Source: Paracoccus binzhouensis
GTDB taxonomy: Bacteria; Pseudomonadota; Alphaproteobacteria; Rhodobacterales; Rhodobacteraceae
Assembly: GCF_016446475.1 (NCBI RefSeq)
Contig: NZ_JAEHFP010000003.1
Location: forward strand, 1 to 64,000
Length of the DNA stretch: 64,000 bases
Direction: 5' to 3'
The notes below the pieces were generated by a model that was given only the letters and a program-made list of their open reading frames with translations, did not search any database and was not told the origin of the DNA. The position numbers and the translations under genes are program-made. Shown in pieces: positions 28,717-41,480 of the stretch (within the stretch, counting starts at the first letter, position 1; each line of letters begins with the position of its first letter).

Positions 28717-29406
28717 ATGTCCTATGTCCTGCCCGCTCCCGTCACGCCCTCGGTTCCCGTCGCCGGCCGCGCCGAGCGTTTCGCGGTGCGCCGCATCTTC
28801 TGCGTCGGCCGCAACTATGCCGACCATGCGCGCGAGATGGGCCACGACCCGGAGCGCGAGCCACCCTTCTTCTTCTCCAAGCCGGCCGATGCGCTGCTGA
28901 CCGACGATGCGCCGCTGCCCTATCCGCCGCTGACCGCCGACCTGCATTACGAGGCCGAGCTGGTTGTCGCCCTCGGCCACGGCGGCAGCGACATCCCGGT
29001 CGGGCAGGCGCCGGATCACGTCTGGGGCTATGCCGCCGGCAACGACTTCACCCGCCGCGACCTGCAGGCCGAAGCGAAGCGGCTGGGCCGGCCCTGGGAC
29101 ATGGCCAAGGGCTTCGACCATTCCGCCGCCTGCGGGGCGATCACCCCGGCGGCAGCATTGGCGGGGCCGCCGGACCATGGCCGCATCGCCTCGACGGTCG
29201 ATGGCGTGCTGCGCCAGCAGGGCGACCTGTCCCAGATGATCTGGTCGGTGCCCGAGATCGTCGCCATCCTGTCGCGCCATGTCCGCCTGGCGGCGGGCGA
29301 CCTGATCTTCACCGGCACGCCGGCGGGGGTTGGCGCGCTGTCCCGCGGCGCGCTGGTGGTGGTCGAGATCGACGGCCTTGCCCCGCTGCACACCCGGGTG
29401 ATCTGA
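28717..29406 (+). CDS. Fumarylacetoacetate hydrolase family protein (maleylpyruvate / fumarylpyruvate hydrolase-like)
   Basis: A 229-residue single-domain FAH-fold protein. RRIFCVGRNYADHAREMGHD is the conserved N-terminal motif. The metal-binding acidic residues are in YEAELVVALG, the catalytic region is GYAAGNDFTRRDLQ with MAKGFDHSAACG, and GDLIFTGTPAGVG closes the fold. This short form usually hydrolyses maleylpyruvate or fumarylpyruvate in gentisate breakdown, or an acylpyruvate. No gentisate dioxygenase lies in this window, so the pathway is uncertain. It is convergent with pcaQ (46-base gap). Confidence 0.85.
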   Translation: MSYVLPAPVTPSVPVAGRAERFAVRRIFCVGRNYADHAREMGHDPEREPPFFFSKPADALLTDDAPLPYPPLTADLHYEAELVVALGHGGSDIPVGQAPDHVWGYAAGNDFTRRDLQAEAKRLGRPWDMAKGFDHSAACGAITPAAALAGPPDHGRIASTVDGVLRQQGDLSQMIWSVPEIVAILSRHVRLAAGDLIFTGTPAGVGALSRGALVVVEIDGLAPLHTRVI

Positions 29407-29452: not shown

Positions 29453-30367
29453 TCAACCCCGCTCGCGGGCGATGTCGCGGGCGATGCGGGCGAAATCCGC
29501 CAGGCCAGGCGCGACGGTTTCCTGGCGCTGGGTGATGCCGACCGCGCCCGACAAGAAGCCCGCGCCGGTCGGCAGCTCGACCAGTTCGCCCTGCGCGATC
29601 TCGTGCACCACCACCCCGCGCGAGATGAACCACAGCGCCTCCGAGCCCAGGCAGATGCCGCGCCCCAAAGCCAGCGAGACGGTCTCGATCAGCGGCCGCA
29701 GCCCCGACAGCCCGTTTGCGGCCAGGTAGTCGTCGACCTGCGGCCGGATCAGCGCCGTGGTCGGCGGCAGGATCACCGGAGAGGCGGCCAGAGCCTCGGG
29801 GGCGGGCAGGGCGCGGGCGGGATGATCGGCGCGGGCGACCAGGGTGATCTCGTCCTCGTAGAGATGGTCGAAGCTCAGTCCCGCCATCTCGGCGGCGCCG
29901 GGCAGGCGGCCGACGACCAGATCGACCGCGCCTTCGCGCAAAAGCCGCATCAGGTGGAAATGTGGCCCGGTCTCGGCCGCCAGCAGGATCTCGGGGCGCA
30001 GGGCGTGAAAGCGCAGCACCACCTGGGGCAGGAAGCGGGTGGCGACGGTCGGCAGCACGCCGACGCGCAGCGCGCCGCCGCTGCCGGGCCGCAGGGCCGC
30101 CGCCCCGGCCTCGAGCGATTGCAGCGCCGCGCTGGCATGGCGGCGGAACAGCGCCCCCGCCTCGGTCAGCAGCAGCCGGCGGCCCTGGCGCAGGAACATG
30201 GGCTGGCCCAGCAATGTCTCCAGCTCGGCCAGGGTGCGGGACAGGGCCGGCTGCGAGATGCCCTGCGCCCGCGCCACGGGCGACAGCCCGCCTTCGGCCG
30301 CGATAGCTAGAAAGGCGCGGATATGGCGCAGCTTGATCCCCGGATGGATAACCGCATGATTATTCAT
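29453..30367 (-). CDS. pcaQ: pca operon transcriptional regulator PcaQ (LysR family)
   Basis: A 304-residue LysR regulator. The helix-turn-helix is in LRHIRAFLAIAAEGGLSPVARAQGISQPALSRTLAELETLLGQPMF (residues 13-58), and the effector domain runs from about 95. PcaQ activates pcaDCHGB in response to beta-carboxymuconate or its lactone in rhizobia. It is divergent from pcaD with 66 bases between, the standard arrangement. The ATG at 30367 has a weak ribosome binding site. I could not identify the known PcaQ half-sites at their usual spacing in the gap. Confidence 0.9.
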   Translation of the reverse strand: MNNHAVIHPGIKLRHIRAFLAIAAEGGLSPVARAQGISQPALSRTLAELETLLGQPMFLRQGRRLLLTEAGALFRRHASAALQSLEAGAAALRPGSGGALRVGVLPTVATRFLPQVVLRFHALRPEILLAAETGPHFHLMRLLREGAVDLVVGRLPGAAEMAGLSFDHLYEDEITLVARADHPARALPAPEALAASPVILPPTTALIRPQVDDYLAANGLSGLRPLIETVSLALGRGICLGSEALWFISRGVVVHEIAQGELVELPTGAGFLSGAVGITQRQETVAPGLADFARIARDIARERG

Positions 30368-30433
30368 TTCGGTTCATTTAGCATTATCCAAGCGATTTCC
30401 CTTATGCCAGATTATGAATCGAGGGAGATAGCC

Positions 30434-31213
30434 ATGCAAGTTCTGATACGCCCCTGGGGGGCGATGCATTACCGGATCGACGGGCCCGCCGATGGGCTGC
30501 CGGTGCTTTTCGCCAATTCGCTGGGCACCGATCTGCGCCTGTGGGATCCGTTGCTGGCCGAGATGCCGGGCATTCGCGCCATCCGCTTCGACAAGCGCGG
30601 CCACGGCCTCTCCGACGAGGGCGGGGCCTTCCGCATCGAGGACCTGGCCGATGATGCGGCGGCGCTGATCGCGCATCTGGGCCTGGGCCCGGTGGCGCTG
30701 GTCGGCCTGTCCATCGGGGGCATGATCGCCCAGAGCCTGGCCGCGCGCCGGCCCGATCTGGTGCGTGCCGCCGTGCTGTCCAACACCGCAGTCCGCATGG
30801 GCAGTGCCGAAAGCTGGGCCGAGCGCATCGCCGCCATCCGCGCGGCCGGGATCGGTTCGATCGCCGACACGATCATGCAGCGCTGGTTCGCGCCCGGCTT
30901 CCGCGCCCGAGCCGAGCTTGCCGCCTGGCGCAACATGGTGGTGCGCACCTCGGCCGGCGGCTATGTCGCCGCTTGCGAGGCGCTGGCCGCCGCCGACCTG
31001 ACCGAGGGCGCCCGGGCGCTGCGCCTGCCGGTGCTGGTGATCGCGGGCGACCGGGACGGCTCCTCCCCGGCAGAGCTGGTCGGGGCGACCGCCGCGCTGA
31101 TCCCCGGCGCCGGATTTCATGTCATCGCCGATGCCGGCCATCTTCCTTGCGTCGAACAACCAAAGGTTTACGCCGCAATCTTGAAGCGCTTTCTGCAGGA
31201 AATCGCCCGATGA
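30434..31213 (+). CDS. pcaD: 3-oxoadipate enol-lactonase PcaD
   Basis: Hydrolyses beta-ketoadipate enol-lactone to beta-ketoadipate. A 259-residue alpha/beta hydrolase with the nucleophile elbow GLSIGGMI (Ser near residue 95), acid residue region [12 protein letters not shown] and catalytic His in [11 protein letters not shown]. The oxyanion-side [13 protein letters not shown] motif is typical of PcaD. The start at 30434 follows a GGAG ribosome binding site; the frame is open 111 bases upstream across the divergent promoter. It is the first gene of the pca operon and overlaps pcaC by ATGA. Confidence 0.93.
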
Positions 31214-31590
31214 CGACACGCTACGACCAGGGCATGGCCACCCGCCGCCGGGTGCTGGGCGATGCCCATGTGGACCGGGCCGAGGCCGGCAAGACCGCCT
31301 TCGACGCGCCCTTCCAGACCCTGATCACCGAATCCGCCTGGGGCTCGGTCTGGTCGCGCGACACCATCAGCCCGCGCGAGCGCTCGATGCTGACCATCGC
31401 GCTGCTGGCGGGCCTGGGCAACGATCACGAGCTGGCCATGCATATCCGCGCCACCGCCAATACCGGCGCCACGCCCCAGGACGTGCTCGAGGCGCTGCTG
31501 CATGTCGCCATCTATGCCGGCGTGCCGCGCGCGAACCACGCCATCAGGATCGCCAAGGAGACATTCGCCGAAATGGAGGAAAAGCGATGA
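31210..31590 (+). CDS. pcaC: 4-carboxymuconolactone decarboxylase PcaC
   Basis: Decarboxylates gamma-carboxymuconolactone to the enol-lactone used by PcaD. A 126-residue all-helical CMD-family protein: [20 protein letters not shown] at the N-terminus and the family stretch [35 protein letters not shown] in the middle. Length matches stand-alone PcaC. It overlaps pcaD and pcaH by four bases each (ATGA), so translation is coupled through the operon. Confidence 0.93.
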
Positions 31591-32324
31591 CCCTCAGCCA
31601 TTCCATCGACCGCGGGCCGCTGTTCTTCCGCGACCGCGACTGGCACCCGCCGGCCTATACGCCGGGCTACAAGACCTCGATGACCCGGGCGCCGCATCGG
31701 GCGCTGGTGGCGCTCGGCTCGACGCTCAGCGAGGAAACCGGCCCCGCCTTCGGCCATGACATGCTGGGCGAGCTGGACAACAACCTGATCGTGAACTTCA
31801 CCGGCCAGCCCGCCATCGGCGAACGCATCATCATGCACGGCCGGGTGCTGGACGAGAACGGCCGCGGCGTGCCGAACGTGCTGGTCGAGATCTGGCAGGC
31901 CAATGCCGGCGGCCGCTACCGCCACAAGAAGGACGGCTACCTGGCGCCGCTCGATCCGAACTTCGGCGGCTGCGGGCGCACCGTCACCGCGCAGGACGGT
32001 TCCTACGAATTCCTGACCGTGCGCCCCGGCGCCTATCCCTGGCCGAACCACGTCAACAACTGGCGGCCGATGCATATCCATGTCTCGATCTTCGGCACCG
32101 GCTTCGGCCAGCGCCTGATCACCCAGATGTATTTCGAGGGCGACCCGCTGATCGCCAGATGCCCGATCGTCAACACCATCGGCCAGGACCGCGCCATCCA
32201 GGCGCTGGTCGCGCCGCTTGACATGAACCGGGCGATCCCGATGGATTGTCTGGCCTACAAGTTCGACATCGTGCTGCGCGGCCGCCGCCAGTCGTTCTTC
32301 GAGAACCGCAAGGAGGGGATGTGA
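31587..32324 (+). CDS. pcaH: Protocatechuate 3,4-dioxygenase beta subunit PcaH
   Basis: The iron-bearing subunit of the intradiol ring-cleaving dioxygenase, which opens protocatechuate to beta-carboxy-cis,cis-muconate. The 245-residue protein keeps the four Fe(III) ligands: Tyr in [10 protein letters not shown], Tyr in RPGAYPWPN, and two His in [11 protein letters not shown]. The intradiol signature [25 protein letters not shown] is present. It overlaps pcaC by ATGA and pcaG by one base (TGATG). Confidence 0.95.
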
Positions 32325-32929
32325 TGCAACGGCTGGACTATCTCAAGGAAACCCCCTCGCAGACCGCCGGCCCCTATGTCCATATCGGCCTGACCCCGAA
32401 CAAGCTGGGCAATGCCGGCATCTATCCCGCCGACCTGGGCGAAAGCCCGATCCGGCCGGGCGCGCGCGGGCAGGAGATCACCATCACCGGCACGGTGCGG
32501 GACGGCGCCGGCATGATCCTGCGCGATGCCCTGATCGAAAGCTGGCAGGCCGATGCCGAGGGCATCTTCCCGGGCAACGACCCGCGCGGCCCGGCCGATC
32601 CGAACGTCACCGGCTGGGCGCGGATCATCGCCGATTTCGACTCGGGCGAATGGACGCTGCGGACCGTCAAGCCGGGCCGGGTGCCGTTCCATGACGGCCG
32701 GCCGATGGCGCCGCACATCTCGCTCTGGATCGTGGCGCGCGGCATCAATCTCGGCCTGCAGACCCGGATCTATTTCGAGGACGAGGACAATGACTCCTGC
32801 CCGGTCCTGCAGCGCATCGAGCATCGTGAGCGCATAGGCACCCTGATCGCCCGCAAGACCGGCGCGCAGGCCTATCGCTTCGACATCATCCTGCAGGGTG
32901 AGAACGAAACCGTCTTCTTCGACCTGTGA
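32324..32929 (+). CDS. pcaG: Protocatechuate 3,4-dioxygenase alpha subunit PcaG
   Basis: A 201-residue partner of PcaH, homologous to it but without the iron ligands. It starts [23 protein letters not shown], the family N-terminus that helps form the substrate pocket at the interface, and carries ALIESWQADAEGIFPG and FHDGRPMAPHISLWIVARG. The ATG at 32324 overlaps the pcaH stop (TGATG) and follows AGGAGGGG. Six bases separate it from the next gene, so the BKACE gene belongs to the same operon. Confidence 0.94.
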   Translation: MQRLDYLKETPSQTAGPYVHIGLTPNKLGNAGIYPADLGESPIRPGARGQEITITGTVRDGAGMILRDALIESWQADAEGIFPGNDPRGPADPNVTGWARIIADFDSGEWTLRTVKPGRVPFHDGRPMAPHISLWIVARGINLGLQTRIYFEDEDNDSCPVLQRIEHRERIGTLIARKTGAQAYRFDIILQGENETVFFDL

Positions 32930-32935
32930 GGCATC

Positions 32936-33784
32936 ATGCTGGATCTGTCCGACAAGCCCTGCATCATCTGCGTCGCCATCACCGGCTCGCTGCCGACCAA
33001 GCACAACAACCCCGCGGTGCCGATCACCGTCGCCGAGCAGATCGAGTCGACCCATGAGGCTTTCGAGGCCGGCGCCAGCATCGCCCATTGCCATGTCCGC
33101 GACGACGAGGGCCGGCCGACCTCCGACCCGGAACGCTTCGCGCGGCTCAAGGAAGGGCTCGAGAAGCACTGCCCCGGCCTGATCGTCCAGCTTTCGACGG
33201 GCGGACGCTCGGGCGCAGGCAGGACCCGCGGCGGCATGCTGCCGCTGCGGCCCGACATGGCCTCGCTCTCGGTCGGCTCGAACAACTTCCCGACCCGGGT
33301 CTACGAGAACCCGCCGGACCTGGTCGACTGGCTGGCCGCCGAAATGCTGAAATACGGCGTCAAGCCGGAAATCGAGGCCTTCGACCTCAGCCATATCCTG
33401 CAGGCGGCGCAGATGCACCGGGACGGCCGCATCAAGGACCGCCCCTATGTGCAATTCGTCATGGGGGTGAAGAACGCCATGCCCGCCGACCGCGAGGTCT
33501 TCGACTACTACGTCCACACCGTCCGGCGGCTTTTCGGCGCGGACGTGCCCTGGTGCGCGGCGGGCATTGGCGCCAGCCAGATCCTGCTCAACGACTGGGC
33601 AATCTCCTCCGGCGGTCATGCCCGCACGGGGCTTGAGGACAATGTGCGCCTCGACCGCGACCGGCTGGCGCCCTCGAACGCTGCGCTGGTGAAGCGCGCC
33701 GTCGACCTCTGCGGGAAATACGGCCGCCCCGTGGCGACGGTGCAGCAGGCCCGGCAGATCCTCGGCCTGCGCGCCGCCGCCTGA
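32936..33784 (+). CDS. Beta-keto acid cleavage enzyme (BKACE, formerly DUF849 / 3-keto-5-aminohexanoate cleavage family)
   Basis: A 282-residue TIM-barrel Zn enzyme. The metal-binding His-x-His is seen in SIAHCHVRDDEGRPTSD near residue 46, STGGRSG is the substrate loop, and PEIEAFDLSH and AGIGASQ are conserved. BKACE enzymes cleave a beta-keto acid with acetyl-CoA to give acetoacetate and a new acyl-CoA. Placed six bases after pcaG and before pcaB, the likely substrate is beta-ketoadipate, giving succinyl-CoA plus acetoacetate. That would bypass PcaIJ and PcaF, which are not seen here. Family is firm; substrate is inference. Confidence 0.88.
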   Translation: MLDLSDKPCIICVAITGSLPTKHNNPAVPITVAEQIESTHEAFEAGASIAHCHVRDDEGRPTSDPERFARLKEGLEKHCPGLIVQLSTGGRSGAGRTRGGMLPLRPDMASLSVGSNNFPTRVYENPPDLVDWLAAEMLKYGVKPEIEAFDLSHILQAAQMHRDGRIKDRPYVQFVMGVKNAMPADREVFDYYVHTVRRLFGADVPWCAAGIGASQILLNDWAISSGGHARTGLEDNVRLDRDRLAPSNAALVKRAVDLCGKYGRPVATVQQARQILGLRAAA

Positions 33785-33789
33785 CCGCC

Positions 33790-33842
33790 CGTCTTTCCGT
33801 TTCCCCAATACCCTCGGGGGTCCGGGGGCAGACAGCCCCCGG
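33790..33842 (-). repeat. GC-rich hairpin repeat, copy 1 (reverse orientation)
   Basis: In the minus direction this reads CCGGGGG-CTGTCTG-CCCCCGG (33822-33842, seven-base-pair stem), ACCCCCGAGGGTATTG and then GGAAACGGAAAGACG. It matches the copy at 59090-59142 almost base for base. It occupies most of the gap between the BKACE gene and pcaB, pointing against the operon. It may act as a transcript-stability hairpin. Confidence 0.75.
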
Positions 33843-33868
33843 CGCCACCCCGACAAAAGGATCCGCCG

Positions 33869-35182
33869 ATGCCCGCCGCACTCGCCGACAGCGCCATCTA
33901 TCGCAGCCTGTTCTCGGACGAGGCCACCGCCGCGCTGTTCACCGACAGCGCCGAGATCCGCGCCATGCTGCTGGTCGAGGGCGCGTTGGCCCGCGTGCAG
34001 GGCCGGCTGGGCCTGATCCCGGAAACCGCCGCCGCCTTCATCGACCGCGCCGCGCGCGAGGTGCAGATCGACCCCGCCGCGCTGGCCGCCGAGACCGCGA
34101 CCAACGGCGTGCCGGTTCCGGCGCTGGTCGCCGCCTTCCGCAAGGCGATGCAGGCGCCCGACCATGCGCAATACCTGCATTGGGGCGCCACCAGCCAGGA
34201 CATCATGGAAACCGGGCTGGCCCTGCGGTTGCGCCGCGCGACCCAGATCTGGGACGAGCGGCTGCGGGATCTGGTCCGCGCCCTTGGCCGGCTGGCGGGC
34301 GACCATGCCGATCTGCCCATGGCGGCGCGCACCTATGGCCAGGCGGCGACGCCCACCAGCTTCGGCGCCGTGGTCGCCGGCTGGGGCCATCCGCTGATCC
34401 GCCACCGCCGGCGGCTGGACGAGATCCGCGCCGGGATCGCCACCGTCTCGCTGGGCGGCGCCGCGGGCACGCTGTCGGCCATGGGTCCCGAGGGGCCCGC
34501 CGTCCGCGCCGCGCTGGCCGAGGCGCTGGAACTGGCCGATCCGGGCCATGGCTGGCATGCCGAACGCGACCGCATCGGCGGTTTCGCCGCCTGGATGGCG
34601 GGACTGGCCGCCAGCCTCGGCAAGATGGGCGAGGATCTCATCCTGATGAGCCAGTCCGGCATCGACGAGATCCGGCTGCAAGGCGCGGGCGGTTCCTCGA
34701 CCATGCCGCAGAAGCAGAACCCGGTCGGCCCCTCGGTCCTGGTGGCGCTGGCCCGGCAGGCGGCGGCGCTGGCCGCGGCCATCCAGGCCGCCGGCATCCA
34801 CCGCCAGCAGCGCGACGGCGCCGCCTGGTTCGTCGAGTGGCTGACCCTGCCGCAGCTTTGCATCTCGACCGGGCGCGGCATCGCGCTGGCGCTGGACCTG
34901 GCGGGACGCATCACCCCCGATGCCGCGGCCATGGCGCGCGGGCTCGAGGGCGGCTGCGGGCTGATCCATGCCGAGGCCTTCACCTTCGCCCTGGCCCGCC
35001 ACATGCCGCGCCCCGAGGCGCAGGCAAGGATCAAGGCGCTGTGCAAGGAGGCCTTGGCGACGGGCACGCCCTTGCCGGGCCTGGTCAACCGCGATTTCCC
35101 GGATCTGGATCTCTCGGCGGCGGGTGGCCTCGGCACCGCCCCCGCCGAGGCCCGCGCCTTCGCCGCGGCCGCGCTGGCGTGA
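33869..35182 (+). CDS. pcaB: 3-carboxy-cis,cis-muconate cycloisomerase PcaB
   Basis: Lactonises beta-carboxymuconate to gamma-carboxymuconolactone. A 437-residue member of the fumarase/aspartase superfamily with the signature GGSSTMPQKQNPVGP (about residues 273-287), the catalytic loop Ser in it, and HWGATSQDIMETGLAL near residue 105. It is the last gene of the pca operon, separated from the BKACE gene by 84 bases that contain the hairpin repeat. Length is typical for proteobacterial PcaB (about 350-450). Confidence 0.93.
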   Translation: MPAALADSAIYRSLFSDEATAALFTDSAEIRAMLLVEGALARVQGRLGLIPETAAAFIDRAAREVQIDPAALAAETATNGVPVPALVAAFRKAMQAPDHAQYLHWGATSQDIMETGLALRLRRATQIWDERLRDLVRALGRLAGDHADLPMAARTYGQAATPTSFGAVVAGWGHPLIRHRRRLDEIRAGIATVSLGGAAGTLSAMGPEGPAVRAALAEALELADPGHGWHAERDRIGGFAAWMAGLAASLGKMGEDLILMSQSGIDEIRLQGAGGSSTMPQKQNPVGPSVLVALARQAAALAAAIQAAGIHRQQRDGAAWFVEWLTLPQLCISTGRGIALALDLAGRITPDAAAMARGLEGGCGLIHAEAFTFALARHMPRPEAQARIKALCKEALATGTPLPGLVNRDFPDLDLSAAGGLGTAPAEARAFAAAALA

Positions 35183-35269
35183 TCCCCGGATCGGAAAAAG
35201 GGGGCCTCGCGCCCCGGCGCACACCGCACCTGCCGGCCACCTGCGATGGCACGAGGCGGGGCAGGGGCT

Positions 35270-36880
35270 TCAGCCCCGGGCATCCTCCAGCATCATCCGC
35301 GCCGCCTTTTCGGCGATCATCATCACCGGGGCGTTGGTATTGCCGCTGGTGATCGTCGGCATGACCGAGGCGTCGGCGATGCGCAGCCGGCCAAGCGCCC
35401 GCATCCGCAGCCGGGGATCGACCACCGCGCCGTCATCGGCGCCCATGCGGCAGGTGCCGACCGGGTGGAAGATGGTGGTGCCGACCGCGCCGGCCGCCTT
35501 GACCAGGTCTTCGTCGGTCTGGAAGGCGATGCCGGGGACATATTCCTCGGGGTCGAAGCGGTTGAAGGCCGGCTGCGCGGCGATCTTGCGCGCCAGGCGG
35601 ATGGCGCGCACCGCCACCTCGCGGTCGGCCTCGGCCGAAAGGTAGTTCGGCCGGATCGCGGGATGGGCGCGGAAATCCGGCCCGGCGACATGGACCGAGC
35701 CGCGGCTTTCCGGCCGCAGGTTGCAGACCGAGGCGGTCATGGCCGGGAAGGGATGCACCGGGTCGCCGAACTTGTCCAGGCTGACCGGCTGGACGTGGAA
35801 TTCCAGGTCCGGCGTCGCCTTGTCCGGCCCGGATCGGGTAAAGATGCCCAGCTGGCTCGGCGCCATCGACATCGGTCCCGAGCGTTTCAGCAGATATTCC
35901 AGCCCGATCGCCGCCTTGCCCAGCAGATGCGAGGCCTTCTCGTTCAGCGTCGGCACGCCGCGGACCTTGTAGACCAGTCGCAATTGCAGATGGTCCTGCA
36001 GGTTCTCGCCCAGGGACGGGACCTCGACCTGCGGGGCGATGCCGGCGGCCTGAAGCACCTCGCCGCGCCCGACGCCGGACTGTTCGAGGATCTGCACCGA
36101 GCCGATGGAGCCCGCCGCCAGCACCGTCTCGCGCAAGGCGCGGACCTCGCGGCGCTGGCCCTGATGGTGAAAGACGACGCCCGCGACCTCGCCCGCCTCG
36201 ATCACCAGCCGCTCGACCTCGGCGCCGGTCAGGATGCGCAGGTTGGGGCGGTTTTTCACTGGGCCCAGGAAGGCGCGGGCGGCGCTCCAGCGCCAGCCGG
36301 CTTTCTGGGTCACGTCGAAATAGCCGCCGCCTTCATTGTCGCCGCGGTTGAAGTCGTCCGTGCGCGGGATGCCGGCCTGCTCGGCCGCGTCCATGAAAGC
36401 GTCGAGCACAGCCCAGCGGACCCGCGCGGTTTCCACCCGCAGCTCGCCGCCGGCGCCGTGCATGGCGTCGCCGCCGCGATAATGGTCCTCTTGCGCCTTG
36501 AACAGCGGCAGCACGTCGTCCCAGCCCCAGCCGGTGCAGCCCAGCTGGCGCCAATGGTCGTAATCCGCCGCCTGGCCGCGCATGTAGATCATGCCGTTGA
36601 TCGAGGAGCAGCCGCCCAGCACCCGCCCGCGCGGATAAAGCAGCGCGCGGCCGTTCAGCCCCGGCTCGGGCTGGGTGCGGAAGCCCCAGTCGGTGCGCGG
36701 GTTGCCGATGCAGTAGAGATAGCCGACCGGGATATGGATCCAGTGGTAATTGTCGCGCCCCCCGGCCTCCAGCAACAGCACGCGGGTGCCGGGATCGGCG
36801 CTGAGGCGGTTGGCCAGCACGCAGCCGGCGCTGCCCGCGCCGATCACGATGTAGTCATAGCTTTCCATCGGATACTCCAT
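35270..36880 (-). CDS. GMC family FAD-dependent alcohol dehydrogenase (choline dehydrogenase-like)
   Basis: A 536-residue flavoprotein with the N-terminal FAD motif DYIVIGAGSAGCVLANRLS, GMC signature 1 (YPRGRVLGGCSSINGMIYMRG) and signature 2 (ETVLAAGSIGSVQILEQSGVG). The C-terminal active-site pair is in FHPVGTCRMG and TSGNTNAPVMMIAEKAA. GMC enzymes oxidise alcohols such as choline, polyethylene glycols or long-chain alcohols. It lies 34 bases after livM of a LIV transporter and is probably in that operon, suggesting that the imported compound is its substrate. Start at 36880, with GGAGG six bases upstream. Confidence 0.87.
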   Translation of the reverse strand: MEYPMESYDYIVIGAGSAGCVLANRLSADPGTRVLLLEAGGRDNYHWIHIPVGYLYCIGNPRTDWGFRTQPEPGLNGRALLYPRGRVLGGCSSINGMIYMRGQAADYDHWRQLGCTGWGWDDVLPLFKAQEDHYRGGDAMHGAGGELRVETARVRWAVLDAFMDAAEQAGIPRTDDFNRGDNEGGGYFDVTQKAGWRWSAARAFLGPVKNRPNLRILTGAEVERLVIEAGEVAGVVFHHQGQRREVRALRETVLAAGSIGSVQILEQSGVGRGEVLQAAGIAPQVEVPSLGENLQDHLQLRLVYKVRGVPTLNEKASHLLGKAAIGLEYLLKRSGPMSMAPSQLGIFTRSGPDKATPDLEFHVQPVSLDKFGDPVHPFPAMTASVCNLRPESRGSVHVAGPDFRAHPAIRPNYLSAEADREVAVRAIRLARKIAAQPAFNRFDPEEYVPGIAFQTDEDLVKAAGAVGTTIFHPVGTCRMGADDGAVVDPRLRMRALGRLRIADASVMPTITSGNTNAPVMMIAEKAARMMLEDARG

Positions 36881-36914: not shown

Positions 36915-37916
36915 TCACGATTCCGCCCTGAACCCGAGCCTTCTGCCGATTTTTGTTGCGAAGAACTCGCCCACCAGGCCTCTGCGGAACAGCAGGACGC
37001 AGACCATGAAGACGACGCCGGTGATGATGGTGACGGGGAAGTCGGAGGTGGCGAGGTAGTTCTGCAAGGTGACCACCAGGCCGGCGCCGACGATGGGGCC
37101 CAGGAGCGTGCCGATGCCGCCCAGCAGCGTCATCAGGATCACCTCGCCCGACATCTGCCAGGTCACGTCGGTCAGCGTCGCGAACTGGAAGATCAGCGCC
37201 TTGACCCCGCCGGCGAGCCCGGCCAGCGCCGCCGACATCACGAAGGCGCCCAGCTTGTAGCGCTGCACCGAATAGCCCAGCGAGATCGCGCGTTGCTCGT
37301 TTTCCCGGATCGACTTCAGGATCATGCCGAAGGGCGAGTTCACGAAGCGCCGGATGATCAGCAGACCCAGGACAAAGACCGCCAGCACGAAGTAATACAT
37401 GTTCATCGGCCGGTTCAGGTCGATCAGCCCGAAGAGATGCCCGCGCGGCACAGACTGGATGCCGTCCTCGCCATGGGTGAAGGGGGCCTGCAGGCAGAAG
37501 AAGAAGAACATCTGCGACAAGGCCAGGGTGATCATGGCGAAATAGATGCCCTGGCGGCGGATGGCGATGGCGCCCATCACCAGCCCCAGCAGGGCGGCGC
37601 CGGCGACGCCCAGCAGGATGCCCGCCTCGGGCGACCAGCCCCAGACCTTGACCGCATGGGCGGTGAAATAGGCCGCCCCGCCGAAGAAGGTGGCATGGCC
37701 GAAGGACAGAAGCCCGGTATAGCCCAAGAGCAGGTTGAAGGCCGAGGCGAAGAGCGCGAAGGCCAGCAGCTTCATCAGGAAGATCGGATAGAGGAACATC
37801 GGCGCCACCAGCAGCCCGGCCAGGGCGAGGGCGACCAGCACCAGCTGGACCTGCCCGGCGCGGGGATGGGCCGTGACATGGTCCTCCGAAGCGACGGTTT
37901 CGGATTTTGCGGCCAT
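36915..37916 (-). CDS. livM: Branched-chain amino acid type ABC transporter permease (LivM family), second system
   Basis: A 333-residue inner-membrane permease with about nine to ten hydrophobic segments. Motifs are FNLLLGYTGLLSFGHATFFGGAAYF and the coupling region SIRENEQRAISLGYSVQRYKLGAF. I prefer the ATG at 37916, which lies one base after the livH stop with GGAAAGG nine bases upstream. The ATG at 37925 would add three residues and overlaps livH. It forms the channel with the LivH encoded just upstream. Confidence 0.88.
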   Translation of the reverse strand: MAAKSETVASEDHVTAHPRAGQVQLVLVALALAGLLVAPMFLYPIFLMKLLAFALFASAFNLLLGYTGLLSFGHATFFGGAAYFTAHAVKVWGWSPEAGILLGVAGAALLGLVMGAIAIRRQGIYFAMITLALSQMFFFFCLQAPFTHGEDGIQSVPRGHLFGLIDLNRPMNMYYFVLAVFVLGLLIIRRFVNSPFGMILKSIRENEQRAISLGYSVQRYKLGAFVMSAALAGLAGGVKALIFQFATLTDVTWQMSGEVILMTLLGGIGTLLGPIVGAGLVVTLQNYLATSDFPVTIITGVVFMVCVLLFRRGLVGEFFATKIGRRLGFRAES

Positions 37917-37917
37917 G

Positions 37918-38805
37918 TCAGGCATCCTTTCCGAAAAGGCCCGCGGGCCGCAGGATCAGGACGATCGCCATGATGACGAAGATCACGATGTTCGAGGCCT
38001 CGGGGTAGAAGACCTTGGTCAGCCCCTCGACCACGCCCAGCAGATAGCCGGTGACGATGGCGCCGAGGATCGAGCCCATGCCGCCGACCACCACCACGGC
38101 GAAGACGATGATGATCAGGTTCGAGCCCATCAGCGGGCTGACCTGATAGACCGGCGCTGCCAGCACCCCGGCGAAACCGGCAAGCCCGGCGCCGAGCGCA
38201 TAGGTCAGGGTCAGGAGCAGGGGCACGTTGACGCCGAAGGCCTGAACCAGCACCGGGTTCTCGGTCGCGGCGCGCAGATAGGCGCCGAGCTTGGTCTTCT
38301 CGATCAGCAGCCAGACCGCGATGCAGACCGCCAGCGAGGCGATGACCACCCAGCCGCGATAGATTGGCAGGAACATGAAGCCCAGGTTCACCGCGCCGGT
38401 CAACTGCGCGGGCGGCGCATAGGGCTTGCCCGAGGCGCCGAAGAAATAGCGGAACGTTCCCTCGATCGCCAGGGCCAGGCCGAAGGTGAACAGCAGGCCG
38501 TAGAGATGGTCGAGCTTGTAAAGCCGCGACAGCATGGTCTTCTCGACCACGGCGGCCATCAGCCCGACGATCAGCGGCGCAAGGATCAGCGCCAGCCAGT
38601 AGTTGATGCCGCCCCAGTTCAGAAGCAGCAGCGCCGCGAAGGCGCCCAGCATGTATTGCGCGCCATGCGCGAAGTTGATGACGCGCAGCAGGCCGAAGAT
38701 GATGGCGAGGCCCAGGGACAAGAGCGCATAGAACGAGCCGTTGATCAGCCCGACCAGCAGCTGCCCCATCAGCGCCTGGACGGGAATGCCGAAGATCATG
38801 GTCAT
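37918..38805 (-). CDS. livH: Branched-chain amino acid type ABC transporter permease (LivH family), second system
   Basis: A 295-residue permease with about eight hydrophobic segments. It carries the family motif LVGLINGSFYALLSLGLAIIFGLLRVINFAHGAQYMLGAF near the N-terminus and GGMGSILGAIVTGYLLGVVEGL near the C-terminus. It follows livF by one base and is followed by livM. The gene order here is K-G-F-H-M, unlike the K-H-M-G-F order of the first system, so the two are separate paralogous operons and not a recent duplication. Confidence 0.88.
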   Translation of the reverse strand: MTMIFGIPVQALMGQLLVGLINGSFYALLSLGLAIIFGLLRVINFAHGAQYMLGAFAALLLLNWGGINYWLALILAPLIVGLMAAVVEKTMLSRLYKLDHLYGLLFTFGLALAIEGTFRYFFGASGKPYAPPAQLTGAVNLGFMFLPIYRGWVVIASLAVCIAVWLLIEKTKLGAYLRAATENPVLVQAFGVNVPLLLTLTYALGAGLAGFAGVLAAPVYQVSPLMGSNLIIIVFAVVVVGGMGSILGAIVTGYLLGVVEGLTKVFYPEASNIVIFVIMAIVLILRPAGLFGKDA

Positions 38806-38806
38806 C

Positions 38807-39508
38807 TCACACCCCCAGTTCGCGATGCAGCAGGTCCATCTGCTGCGGCAGGTCGGCCACGGGGAATTCCGCCGTCATCCGGCCGTGGTCCATCAGGTAG
38901 AAGCGGTCGGCGACCTTGGCGGCGAAGCGGAAGTTCTGCTCGACCAGCACCACGGTCATGCCGCGGCCCTTCAGCTTCTGCAGCACCTCGCCGATGGCCT
39001 GGATGATGACCGGCGCCAGCCCCTCGGTCGGCTCGTCGAGCAAAAGGCAGCGCGCCCCGGTGCGCAGGATGCGCGCCATGGCCAGCATCTGCTGCTCGCC
39101 CCCCGACAGCTTGGTGCCCTGCGAATTGCGGCGTTCCTGCAGGTTCGGGAACAGCGCATAGATCTCCTCGACCGACATGCCGCCCGGGGCGACCCTGGGC
39201 GGCAGCATCAGGTTCTCCTCGACCGAGAGGCTGGCGAAGATGCCGCGCTCCTCGGGGACGAAGCCCAGGCCGGCGCGGGCGGTCTGGTGCAGGGGCAGCG
39301 CCATCATGTCGCGCCCGGCGAATTCGATCCGGCCCGTGCGCTTGCGCAGGATGCCCATGATGCTGCGCAGGGTGGTGGTCTTGCCCATGCCGTTGCGGCC
39401 CAGGATGCAGATGGTCTCGCCCTCGGCGACGGTCAGGTTCACGCCGTGCAGGACATGGCTTTCGCCATACCAGGCCTGCAGGTTCTCGACGGACAGAAGC
39501 GCGCTCAT
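38807..39508 (-). CDS. livF: Branched-chain amino acid type ABC transporter ATP-binding protein (LivF family), second system
   Basis: A 233-residue ATPase with Walker A GRNGMGKTT, LivF-type GLGFVPEERGIFASLSVEENLML, signature LSGGEQQMLAMARIL and Walker B CLLLDEPTEGLAP. The switch histidine of most LivF proteins is replaced in VVLVEQNFRFAAK, as is usual for this branch (EQN). Its start overlaps the livG stop (ATGA), and it ends one base before livH. Confidence 0.88.
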   Translation of the reverse strand: MSALLSVENLQAWYGESHVLHGVNLTVAEGETICILGRNGMGKTTTLRSIMGILRKRTGRIEFAGRDMMALPLHQTARAGLGFVPEERGIFASLSVEENLMLPPRVAPGGMSVEEIYALFPNLQERRNSQGTKLSGGEQQMLAMARILRTGARCLLLDEPTEGLAPVIIQAIGEVLQKLKGRGMTVVLVEQNFRFAAKVADRFYLMDHGRMTAEFPVADLPQQMDLLHRELGV

Positions 39509-40284
39509 GCCTCGGACCCCATATAGGCGCTGCGCACGCGCGGATCGGCCGAGACGGTGGCATAGTCGCCCGCCGCGATGATCTCGCCGCGCTGCAGCAC
39601 GGTGACGTGGTGGCAGATATCGGCCACGACGCTCAGGTTGTGCTCGACCATCAGCACGGCGCGCTCGGTGGCGAGGTCGCGGATGATGCCCGCGACCATG
39701 GCCACGTCCTCCTGGCCCATGCCGGCCATCGGCTCGTCCAAGAGCAGCACCTCGGGGTCCAGTGCCAGCGTGGTGGCGATCTCCAAGACGCGCTTCCTGC
39801 CATAGGACAGGTCGGCGGCGCGGTGGTCGCGATACGGCGCCAGGCCCAGTTGCTCGATCAGCTGATCGGCCCGCGCGTCCAGCCGGTCGAGCGACGAGAG
39901 TGGCAGCCAGAACTGCACCGCCAGCCCGGCGGGGCGCTGCAGGGCGACCTTGACGTTCTCGCGCACGGTCAGGTGCGGGAAGACGGCCGAGATCTGGAAG
40001 CTGCGCACCAGCCCCATGCGCGCCACCTTGTCGGGCGGCGTGCGCGTGATGTCCTGGCCCAACAGCGTGATCTGGCCCCGCGTCGGCTGCAGGAACTTGG
40101 TCAAGAGGTTGAAGACCGTGGTCTTGCCCGCGCCATTCGGCCCGATCAGGGCGTGGATGCGGGCGTGCTCCACGTCCAGATCCACGTTGTTCACCGCCGT
40201 GAAACCCGCGAAATCCTTGCCCAGGCCGCGGGCGGATAGCACCACCCGCGGCTCGGCCTGCGTTGCCAGGGACGCCGCCATCAC
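39505..40284 (-). CDS. livG: Branched-chain amino acid type ABC transporter ATP-binding protein (LivG family), second system
   Basis: A 259-residue ATPase with Walker A GPNGAGKTT, LivG-type GLVRSFQISAVFPHLTVRENVKVAL, signature LSYGRKRVLEIATTLA and Walker B VLLLDEPMAGMG, and the switch His in LMVEHNLSVVAD. It is coupled to the binding-protein gene (stop overlaps its ATG) and to livF. It couples ATP use to import through LivH/LivM. Confidence 0.88.
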   Translation of the reverse strand: MMAASLATQAEPRVVLSARGLGKDFAGFTAVNNVDLDVEHARIHALIGPNGAGKTTVFNLLTKFLQPTRGQITLLGQDITRTPPDKVARMGLVRSFQISAVFPHLTVRENVKVALQRPAGLAVQFWLPLSSLDRLDARADQLIEQLGLAPYRDHRAADLSYGRKRVLEIATTLALDPEVLLLDEPMAGMGQEDVAMVAGIIRDLATERAVLMVEHNLSVVADICHHVTVLQRGEIIAAGDYATVSADPRVRSAYMGSEA

Positions 40285-41480
40285 TTGACCAGCGGGCAGC
40301 CGCTTTCAGCCGGGTCCAGATAGGCCTGATCGCCCGGAATGGTGGCGACGACCTTGTAATAGTCCCAGTCCTCGGTCACCTCGTCGGGCTTCTTGACCTC
40401 CATGAGATAGACGTCCGAGATCATCCGGCCGTTGGCCGCGACCTTGCCGTTCTGGGTGAAGACATCGCTTACCGGCAGTTCGTGCAGCTTGGCGGCGACG
40501 GCCTCGGTCTCGTCGGTGCCGGCGGCTTCGATGGCCTTCAGATACTGGGTGACGGCCGAATAGGTGCCGGCATGGACCATGTTCGGCATGACGCCGGTGC
40601 GTTCCTTGAAGCGCTTGCCGAACTCGGCCGATTCCGGGGTGCGGTTCCAGTAGAAGCTTTCCGTCAGGTTCAGCCCCTGCGCGGCATCGAGCCCGAGCCC
40701 GTGCACCTCGGCAATGGTGAAGAGCAGCGCGGCCAGCTTCTGCCCGCCCTGGGTGATGCCGAACTCGGACGCCTGCTTGATGGCGTTCTGCGTATCCATG
40801 CCGGCATTGGCCAGGCCGATCACCTTGGCGCCCGAGCTTTGCGCCTGCAGCAGGAACGAGGAATAATCCGTCGTCGCCAGCGGGTGGCGGACCGAGCCCA
40901 CCACCTGACCGCCCTTTTCCTTGACGAAATTCGCGGTCTGCTCCTCCAGCGAATAGCCGAAGGCATAGTCGGCGGTCAGGAAGAACCAGCTGTCGCCGCC
41001 GGCCTCGACCAGCGCGCCGCCGGTGCCCACGGCCAGCGCATGGGTGTCATAGGCCCAGTGGAAACCCAGCGGCGAGCATTGCGCGCCGGTCAGCTCGGTC
41101 GTGGCCGCGCCGGTGGTGATGGTGACCTTGTTCTTTTCCTTGCTCAGCGCCTGCACCGCCAGCGCCACCGAGGAGGTGGTCAGCTCCATGATCGAATCGA
41201 CCTGCTCGGTGTCATACCATTGCCGGGCGATATTCGAGGCGATGTCGGGCTTGTTCTGGTGGTCGGCGGTGACGACCTCGATCGGCGCGTCCAGCACCTT
41301 GCCGCCGAAATCCTCGACCGCCATCCGCGCGGCCTCATAGGAATACTTGCCGCCGAAATCGGCATAGACCCCGGACTGGTCGTTCAGGATGCCGATCTTG
41401 ACCACCCCGTCCGAGATCTCGGCCAAGGCGGGCGTGGCGGCAAGGCCGACCGCAGCGGTCGTGAGCAGAATGTTTCGCAC
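40281..41480 (-). CDS. LIV-type ABC transporter periplasmic substrate-binding protein, second system
   Basis: A 399-residue secreted binding protein with a signal peptide at about 1-20 (MRNILLTTAAVGLAATPALA). The mature part begins ISDGVVKIGILNDQSGVYADFGGKYSYEAARMAVEDFGG, the HAAT binding-protein pattern. It heads the leftward operon with livGFHM and probably the GMC dehydrogenase. Relatives of this subfamily bind compounds other than amino acids, but the ligand cannot be read from sequence. It is divergent from a LysR gene, which likely controls it. Confidence 0.87.
   Translation of the reverse strand: MRNILLTTAAVGLAATPALAEISDGVVKIGILNDQSGVYADFGGKYSYEAARMAVEDFGGKVLDAPIEVVTADHQNKPDIASNIARQWYDTEQVDSIMELTTSSVALAVQALSKEKNKVTITTGAATTELTGAQCSPLGFHWAYDTHALAVGTGGALVEAGGDSWFFLTADYAFGYSLEEQTANFVKEKGGQVVGSVRHPLATTDYSSFLLQAQSSGAKVIGLANAGMDTQNAIKQASEFGITQGGQKLAALLFTIAEVHGLGLDAAQGLNLTESFYWNRTPESAEFGKRFKERTGVMPNMVHAGTYSAVTQYLKAIEAAGTDETEAVAAKLHELPVSDVFTQNGKVAANGRMISDVYLMEVKKPDEVTEDWDYYKVVATIPGDQAYLDPAESGCPLVK

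Follow-up and report, generated by a model that had tools for sequence, protein, structure and literature searches.

What is a gene for a beta-keto acid cleavage enzyme (BKACE) doing in the middle of a protocatechuate operon, and which enzymes finish beta-ketoadipate in a bacterium that carries it there? The locus that raises this question lies in a window of 64,000 nucleotides from Paracoccus binzhouensis, where the genes pcaD-C-H-G-kce-B follow one another on the plus strand beside a divergent pcaQ-like LysR gene. The features and their scores against family models are as follows.

29453..30367, minus strand: regulator of the LysR type, pcaQ-like and divergent from the operon (best family TIGR02424 with 275.8 bits, under the cut-off of 303.8)
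30434..31213, plus strand: pcaD, 3-oxoadipate enol-lactonase (TIGR02427, 292.4 bits; cut-off 255.85)
31210..31590, plus strand: pcaC, 4-carboxymuconolactone decarboxylase, start inferred (TIGR02425, 195.6 bits; cut-off 155.7)
31587..32324, plus strand: pcaH (TIGR02422, 351.6 bits; cut-off 296.4)
32324..32929, plus strand: pcaG, protocatechuate 3,4-dioxygenase alpha, start inferred (TIGR02423, 224.7 bits; cut-off 126.25)
32936..33784, plus strand: BKACE (kce), predicted 3-oxoadipate:acetyl-CoA acetyltransferase (NF053568, 494.4 bits; cut-off 350; Pfam BKACE; solved close relatives 3fa5, 3chv and 3no5)
33869..35182, plus strand: pcaB (TIGR02426, 339.9 bits; best family, under the cut-off of 355.75)

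The start of pcaD was set at the ATG at 30434, the listed reading frame opening at 30323, and PcaQ and PcaB are named here by best match and context, both scores being just below the curated cut-offs. The kce gene is intact from its ATG at 32936 to its stop at 33784 and encodes 282 aa; it starts 6 bp after the stop of pcaG and is followed after 84 bp by the start of pcaB. The first-pass annotation had put a BKACE gene between pcaG and pcaB, and its coordinates, strand and neighbours were all right. By gene order and strand, kce belongs to the putative pca operon. The promoter and terminator scan of 30200-35400 returned 1 and 2 sites, respectively, all on the minus strand, and shuffled sequences gave 0.5 and 1.5.

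Near the operon and on the minus strand, a branched-chain-type ABC transporter is encoded at 36915-41480 (two BPD_transp_2 permeases, two ABC ATPases and a Peripla_BP_6 binding protein), which could serve in the import of aromatic acids. Besides, a GMC-family oxidoreductase gene convergent with pcaB (35270-36880) is similar to choline dehydrogenase models with scores under their cut-offs, and a fumarylacetoacetate-hydrolase-family gene near pcaQ (28717-29406) scores under the cut-offs of all seven NCBIfam models that it matched.

The kce product matches the Pfam family BKACE (PF05853) with 311.5 bits (cut-off 24.8) over positions 1-274 of 274, and its match to NF053568 is full-length; the activity for which that NCBIfam model stands, 3-oxoadipate:acetyl-CoA acetyltransferase, is already a named family. 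Against the equivalog for the Kce of lysine fermentation, the protein scores 247.9 bits, under the cut-off of 382. A chance reading frame was ruled out by the Pfam and NF053568 scores and by the GC content at the three codon positions (0.68/0.47/0.91), which is similar to that of the neighbouring genes. All 17 aligned BKACEs, among them a 32%-identical second copy from the same genome, share the residues H51, H53, E147, R230, E234 and D235, and S87 falls in the 90% class of the same alignment. By analogy with Kce, H51, H53 and E234 would be the metal ligands and R230, D235, E147 and S87 catalytic residues; the metal-binding His-x-His that had been pointed out earlier is present as H51-C-H53. 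Among solved structures, the nearest are 3fa5 (552 bits), 3chv (475) and 3no5 (400), followed by Kce itself (2y7d, 169).

We propose that PcaHGBCD would make beta-ketoadipate and that the BKACE-family (DUF849/Kce) metal-dependent enzyme would then convert beta-ketoadipate and acetyl-CoA into succinyl-CoA and acetoacetate. The acetoacetate would be activated by ScoAB, the 3-oxoacid CoA-transferase encoded at C269:14830-16154, and its thiolysis would yield two acetyl-CoA, with the classical enzymes of a pcaRIJF set coexisting as a second ending, perhaps for the benzoate/catechol branch. We consider this assignment of the kce product likely on the sequence evidence, from which its activity, its physiological role and the way in which the two endings may share the work are predicted. 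The classical PcaIJ/PcaF ending turns beta-ketoadipate and CoA into succinate and acetyl-CoA, and BKACE, ScoAB and acetoacetyl-CoA thiolase acting in series give the identical net balance, as the use of acetoacetate requires ScoAB (or a ligase) and a thiolase. The idea of a route that needs no CoA transferase or thiolase, put forward in the first-pass annotation, is therefore rejected by stoichiometry, and also by the presence of ScoAB genes beside BKACE in relatives; the BKACE route swaps dedicated enzymes for housekeeping ones, and the transferase and thiolase steps stay. The cleavage reaction predicted in the same annotation fared better: its support comes from the family equivalog, from the place of the gene in the operon, from the conserved residues and from the ScoAB genes that adjoin BKACE in relatives.

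We then asked which genes for the two endings the genome holds (4.83 Mb in 270 contigs, 99.98% complete). That no PcaIJ or PcaF genes were in sight, as first noted, held within the window, in which a phmmer search of the genome's own proteins against reading frames of at least 90 aa (E 1e-8) found no PcaI, PcaJ or PcaF match. The genome-wide check for pcaIJ and pcaF that had been recommended along with this observation went the other way: pcaI, pcaJ and pcaF lie together and without internal stops on the minus strand at C240:9990..7390, adjoined by a divergent gene for a PcaR/PcaU-type regulator (331.6 bits, cut-off 284.75), and the PcaF scores 671.6 bits (cut-off 597). A genome without pcaIJF is thus rejected, and a BKACE ending in place of PcaIJF, for which no dedicated PcaIJ/PcaF should be found in the genome, does not describe this strain. 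The NCBIfam transferase-subunit models cannot tell Pca from Sco, and the name PcaIJ is used because the identities are two-peaked (PcaI versus ScoA-type) and the neighbours are PcaF and the PcaR/PcaU-type regulator. For the use of acetoacetate, the genome carries ScoAB and several thiolase-family genes, and a second PcaF-type thiolase is encoded on C220.

The same genome encodes a second branch to beta-ketoadipate in a benABC-catA-catB cluster that includes a BenM/CatM-like LysR gene (G000:C249:36000-52000), with BenA scoring just below its cut-off and BenB, BenC, CatA and CatB above theirs. With two branches, protocatechuate and benzoate/catechol, and the genes for two endings, beta-ketoadipate can arise in two ways and be finished in two ways; the catechol branch is perhaps the one served by pcaIJF. 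Another intradiol dioxygenase, about 284 aa long (L181:6342-7193), scores under the catechol and chlorocatechol cut-offs. The second BKACE of the genome, on C255 (L048:176-1039), belongs by sequence to another subfamily, with 32% identity to the window BKACE and scores below the cut-offs of all four NCBIfam models matched at E 1e-40.

The intact pcaIJF set means that BKACE may be redundant or minor in this strain. We looked at how the two endings are distributed in 198 genomes of the same family, taken to be Rhodobacteraceae from the names of the nearest relatives; the sample represents 197 genera and was drawn from a larger group. A true PcaI was defined as at least 57% identical to the PcaI of this genome, the next matches, at 52% or less, being taken as ScoA-type. 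Over the cut-offs, pcaH was found in 126 genomes and NF053568 in 141, and true PcaI was present in 30. Among the 126 pcaH genomes, BKACE occurs in 117 and true PcaI in 24 (98 with BKACE and no PcaI, 19 with both, five with PcaI only and four with neither, two of these four being only 64% and 78% complete). BKACE lies on the same strand as pcaH and within 6 kb of it in at least 76 of the 126, and within 1 kb in 65. The figure of 76 is a lower bound, as nine of the 141 BKACE genomes have no listed coordinates and were counted as having BKACE but not as pcaH-linked.

Mutual exclusion of BKACE and PcaI was considered and is weak. The pcaH-linked BKACE is independent of PcaI (14 of 76 linked genomes with PcaI versus 10 of 50 others, Fisher p 0.82, uncorrected for ancestry), and a tendency towards exclusion is seen only when BKACE anywhere in the genome is counted (PcaI in 19 of 117 genomes with BKACE and in 5 of 9 without, p 0.012, likewise uncorrected). 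It is possible, though in our view rather doubtful, that the classical PcaIJ/PcaF carries beta-ketoadipate from both branches here and that BKACE is a redundant backup kept by operon inheritance. The intact pcaI-pcaJ-pcaF with its adjoining regulator and the 14 linked genomes that also have PcaI are in keeping with this; it is opposed by the preserved catalytic positions of the window BKACE, by the higher frequency of BKACE than of PcaI in the family, and by the one sampled genome of the same genus (G023), which has a BKACE inside its pca operon and showed no PcaI-grade match (best E 6.7e-51). Both endings were also found on plasmids and can be combined: BKACE matches occur in 81 plasmid records, the best being from Paracoccus yeei (89%), and PcaI matches in 351, of which 296 reach at least 60% identity, many in Rhizobium. 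The PcaI of P. yeei (83-84%) is on different plasmid records from its BKACE.

The neighbourhood of kce was then compared in the best 80 loci of at least 570 confirmed relatives among named GTDB genomes, mostly from Rhodobacteraceae with some from Bradyrhizobium, Bosea and Methylobrevis. The exact order PcaG-Kce-PcaB is found in 17 of these loci and 23 others hold pcaH, G or B, with Kce being the next match after PcaG in 36 of the 80. In the remaining 40, the stretch fetched contains none of pcaH, G and B, some stretches being short; together with the promiscuity of the BKACE family, whose enzymes are reported to have acted on other groups' substrates (PMC4922564), this would suit an enzyme acting on another beta-keto acid, such as dehydrocarnitine, 5-amino-3-ketohexanoate or a ketodeoxy acid, and placed in the operon by chance. 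We think this very improbable, given the 494 bits to the 3-oxoadipate equivalog against 248 for the lysine-fermentation Kce model and the recurrent linkage of BKACE to pcaH in the family.

An enzyme that releases acetoacetate predicts neighbours which use it, and ScoA genes follow BKACE in relatives. Within the stretches fetched, none of the 80 loci has PcaI, PcaJ or PcaF as a best match, and 12 have ScoA 3' of Kce on the same strand, 10 directly and two after PcaB; ScoB then follows in nine, and the three without it end at contig ends soon after. The count of 12 is based on a loose score, a stricter one giving 11 (ScoA of L098, the twelfth, is truncated at a contig end and has a lower score), and the 12 are not independent, since they include two sets of closely related loci, L062/L065 (Donghicola) and L124/L126 (Ruegeria). 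By our estimate, about 0.3 such neighbours would be expected in 1.16 Mb, given about one ScoA-ScoB pair per genome; some of the loci are close relatives. In the family sample, at least two genomes have Kce followed by ScoA, one within the pca operon (G072) and one with ScoB (G099).

The proposed BKACE and ScoAB ending bears on published genetics of Roseovarius nubinhibens. In this bacterium a CoA transferase named pcaIJ (ISM_RS03130/35) is needed for growth on 4-hydroxybenzoate, no effect can be seen when either pcaF or an acyltransferase alone is lost, and the double mutant of the two reaches a lower final OD, other thiolases being thought to compensate (PMC12442348). The paper cites the BKACE paper only for beta-ketoadipate maybe going to other metabolites, and the words "acetoacetate" and "cleavage enzyme" are absent from its text (PMC12442348). 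In 79 genomes taken to be of the genus Roseovarius, NF053568 passes its cut-off in 58 and PcaI at 69-72% identity is present in two, the other PcaI matches among those listed being at 46% or less.

One of these 79 genomes, G259, is probably R. nubinhibens. Its pcaQ is followed, after exactly 159 bp, by the start of a DctP gene, and the TRAP genes of R. nubinhibens are reported 159 bp from the pca cluster (PMC12442348); the transferase, pcaB-like gene and thiolases of G259 also lie roughly where the published locus tags predict. As nearest position was the criterion for matching thiolases to locus tags, there is some circularity in those points, and ISM_RS07170 fits a weak thiolase match at about 1.481 Mb more closely than a strong match at 1.415 Mb, which is 62 kb off; the remaining six tag points are within 13 kb, and the DctP gap and the positions of the transferase and the pcaB-like gene are independent of the thiolase assignment. 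The operon of G259 reads pobA-pcaD-pcaC-pcaH-pcaG-kce, with 469 bits for its kce product to NF053568 and a PcaB that is only pcaB-like (289.8 bits against the cut-off of 355.75). A single transferase was found in this genome with the PcaI query; this protein and its partner are 81% and 88% identical to ScoA and ScoB of P. binzhouensis, against 45% and 51% for PcaI and PcaJ of the latter.

An ending by BKACE and then ScoAB could account for the essential transferase and the dispensable PcaF of R. nubinhibens, and other explanations exist. According to one, ScoAB itself transfers CoA to beta-ketoadipate in relatives without PcaI and general thiolases finish the pathway ("pathway crosstalk", PMC12442348), BKACE being a side activity; we rate this as conceivable rather than expected. 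The failure of the transferase mutant on 4-hydroxybenzoate and the lower OD of the double mutant agree with it, and in Acinetobacter ADP1, which uses the classical route, other thiolases can rescue the loss of pcaF (PMC4213383). A dispensable pcaF is consequently not by itself a sign of BKACE, and our reading of R. nubinhibens is weakened to that extent. Against crosstalk, the transferase of G259 is ScoAB-type, BKACE follows pcaG in its operon, and the published phenotypes would also follow from the BKACE route.

In Phaeobacter, Leisingera and Ruegeria, pcaIJ was noted to be missing, its place apparently taken by a 3-oxoacid CoA-transferase (PMC5064897), and PcaIJ and PcaF are named in the benzoate pathway of Sulfitobacter D7 (PMC9873259), which, as we found, also carries a BKACE on a plasmid. 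A wider proposal, which we hold to be as likely as not, is that BKACE plus housekeeping ScoAB is the default protocatechuate ending of the family. The "pcaIJ" of R. nubinhibens would then be ScoAB acting on acetoacetate from an overlooked BKACE, the crosstalk would be thiolysis of acetoacetyl-CoA and not of 3-oxoadipyl-CoA, and strains with two endings may split them, BKACE for the protocatechuate branch and PcaIJF for the catechol branch. If true, this would account for the step that the search for pcaIJ in roseobacters was meant to fill and would revise a recent genetic interpretation, and it would affect lignin engineering, flux depending on the handling of acetyl-CoA and acetoacetate. If the survey holds, many soil and marine bacteria, a large group, finish a textbook pathway in another way.

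The different ending of the pathway offered in the first-pass annotation is already in print for the same gene position (PMC8963497, PMC12379598); the idea is sound and not new. In 2019, a COG3246 protein of the catechol regulon of Ralstonia eutropha H16 was suggested to cleave beta-ketoadipate, and COG3246 homologues adjoining protocatechuate dioxygenase genes were already noted (PMC6449761). In Methylobacterium, a DUF849 gene sits between pcaG and pcaB in an operon without pcaIJF (PMC8963497), and the reaction proposed here has been stated for its kce (PMC12379598). The M. nodulans pcaHGB-L and kce genes, without pcaIJF, let M. extorquens PA1 grow on protocatechuate, much more slowly than M. 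nodulans, with no kce-minus control in the available part of that text (PMC12379598). Another Methylobacterium island lists PcaIJ and PcaF (PMC12542667), and in SAR11 a BKACE is described in a carnitine/betaine island, ketoadipate and protocatechuate going unmentioned in the available part of that paper (PMC12421898). In a literature that was mainly open-access, no paper was found that links BKACE to the transferase and thiolase results in roseobacters. What this analysis adds is that, across the sampled family, ending the pathway by BKACE looks to be the rule and that ScoAB adjoins it in some relatives.

Compared with known systems, the window BKACE shows no difference from the NF053568 family at family level, and its near full-length structural matches, 3fa5, 3chv and 3no5, were deposited as DUF849 or uncharacterized protein. 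Kce (2y7d) belongs to the same family and its metal and catalytic positions align, their roles being presumed as above, but it differs in substrate group, the window protein staying below the Kce equivalog cut-off. For the COG3246 protein of R. eutropha H16, the same cleavage of beta-ketoadipate was proposed as here, though its gene sits with cat genes and not with pca genes (PMC6449761). The DUF849/kce gene of Methylobacterium occupies the same position between pcaG and pcaB, in operons without pcaIJF, whereas P. binzhouensis has pcaIJF on another contig (PMC8963497, PMC12379598).
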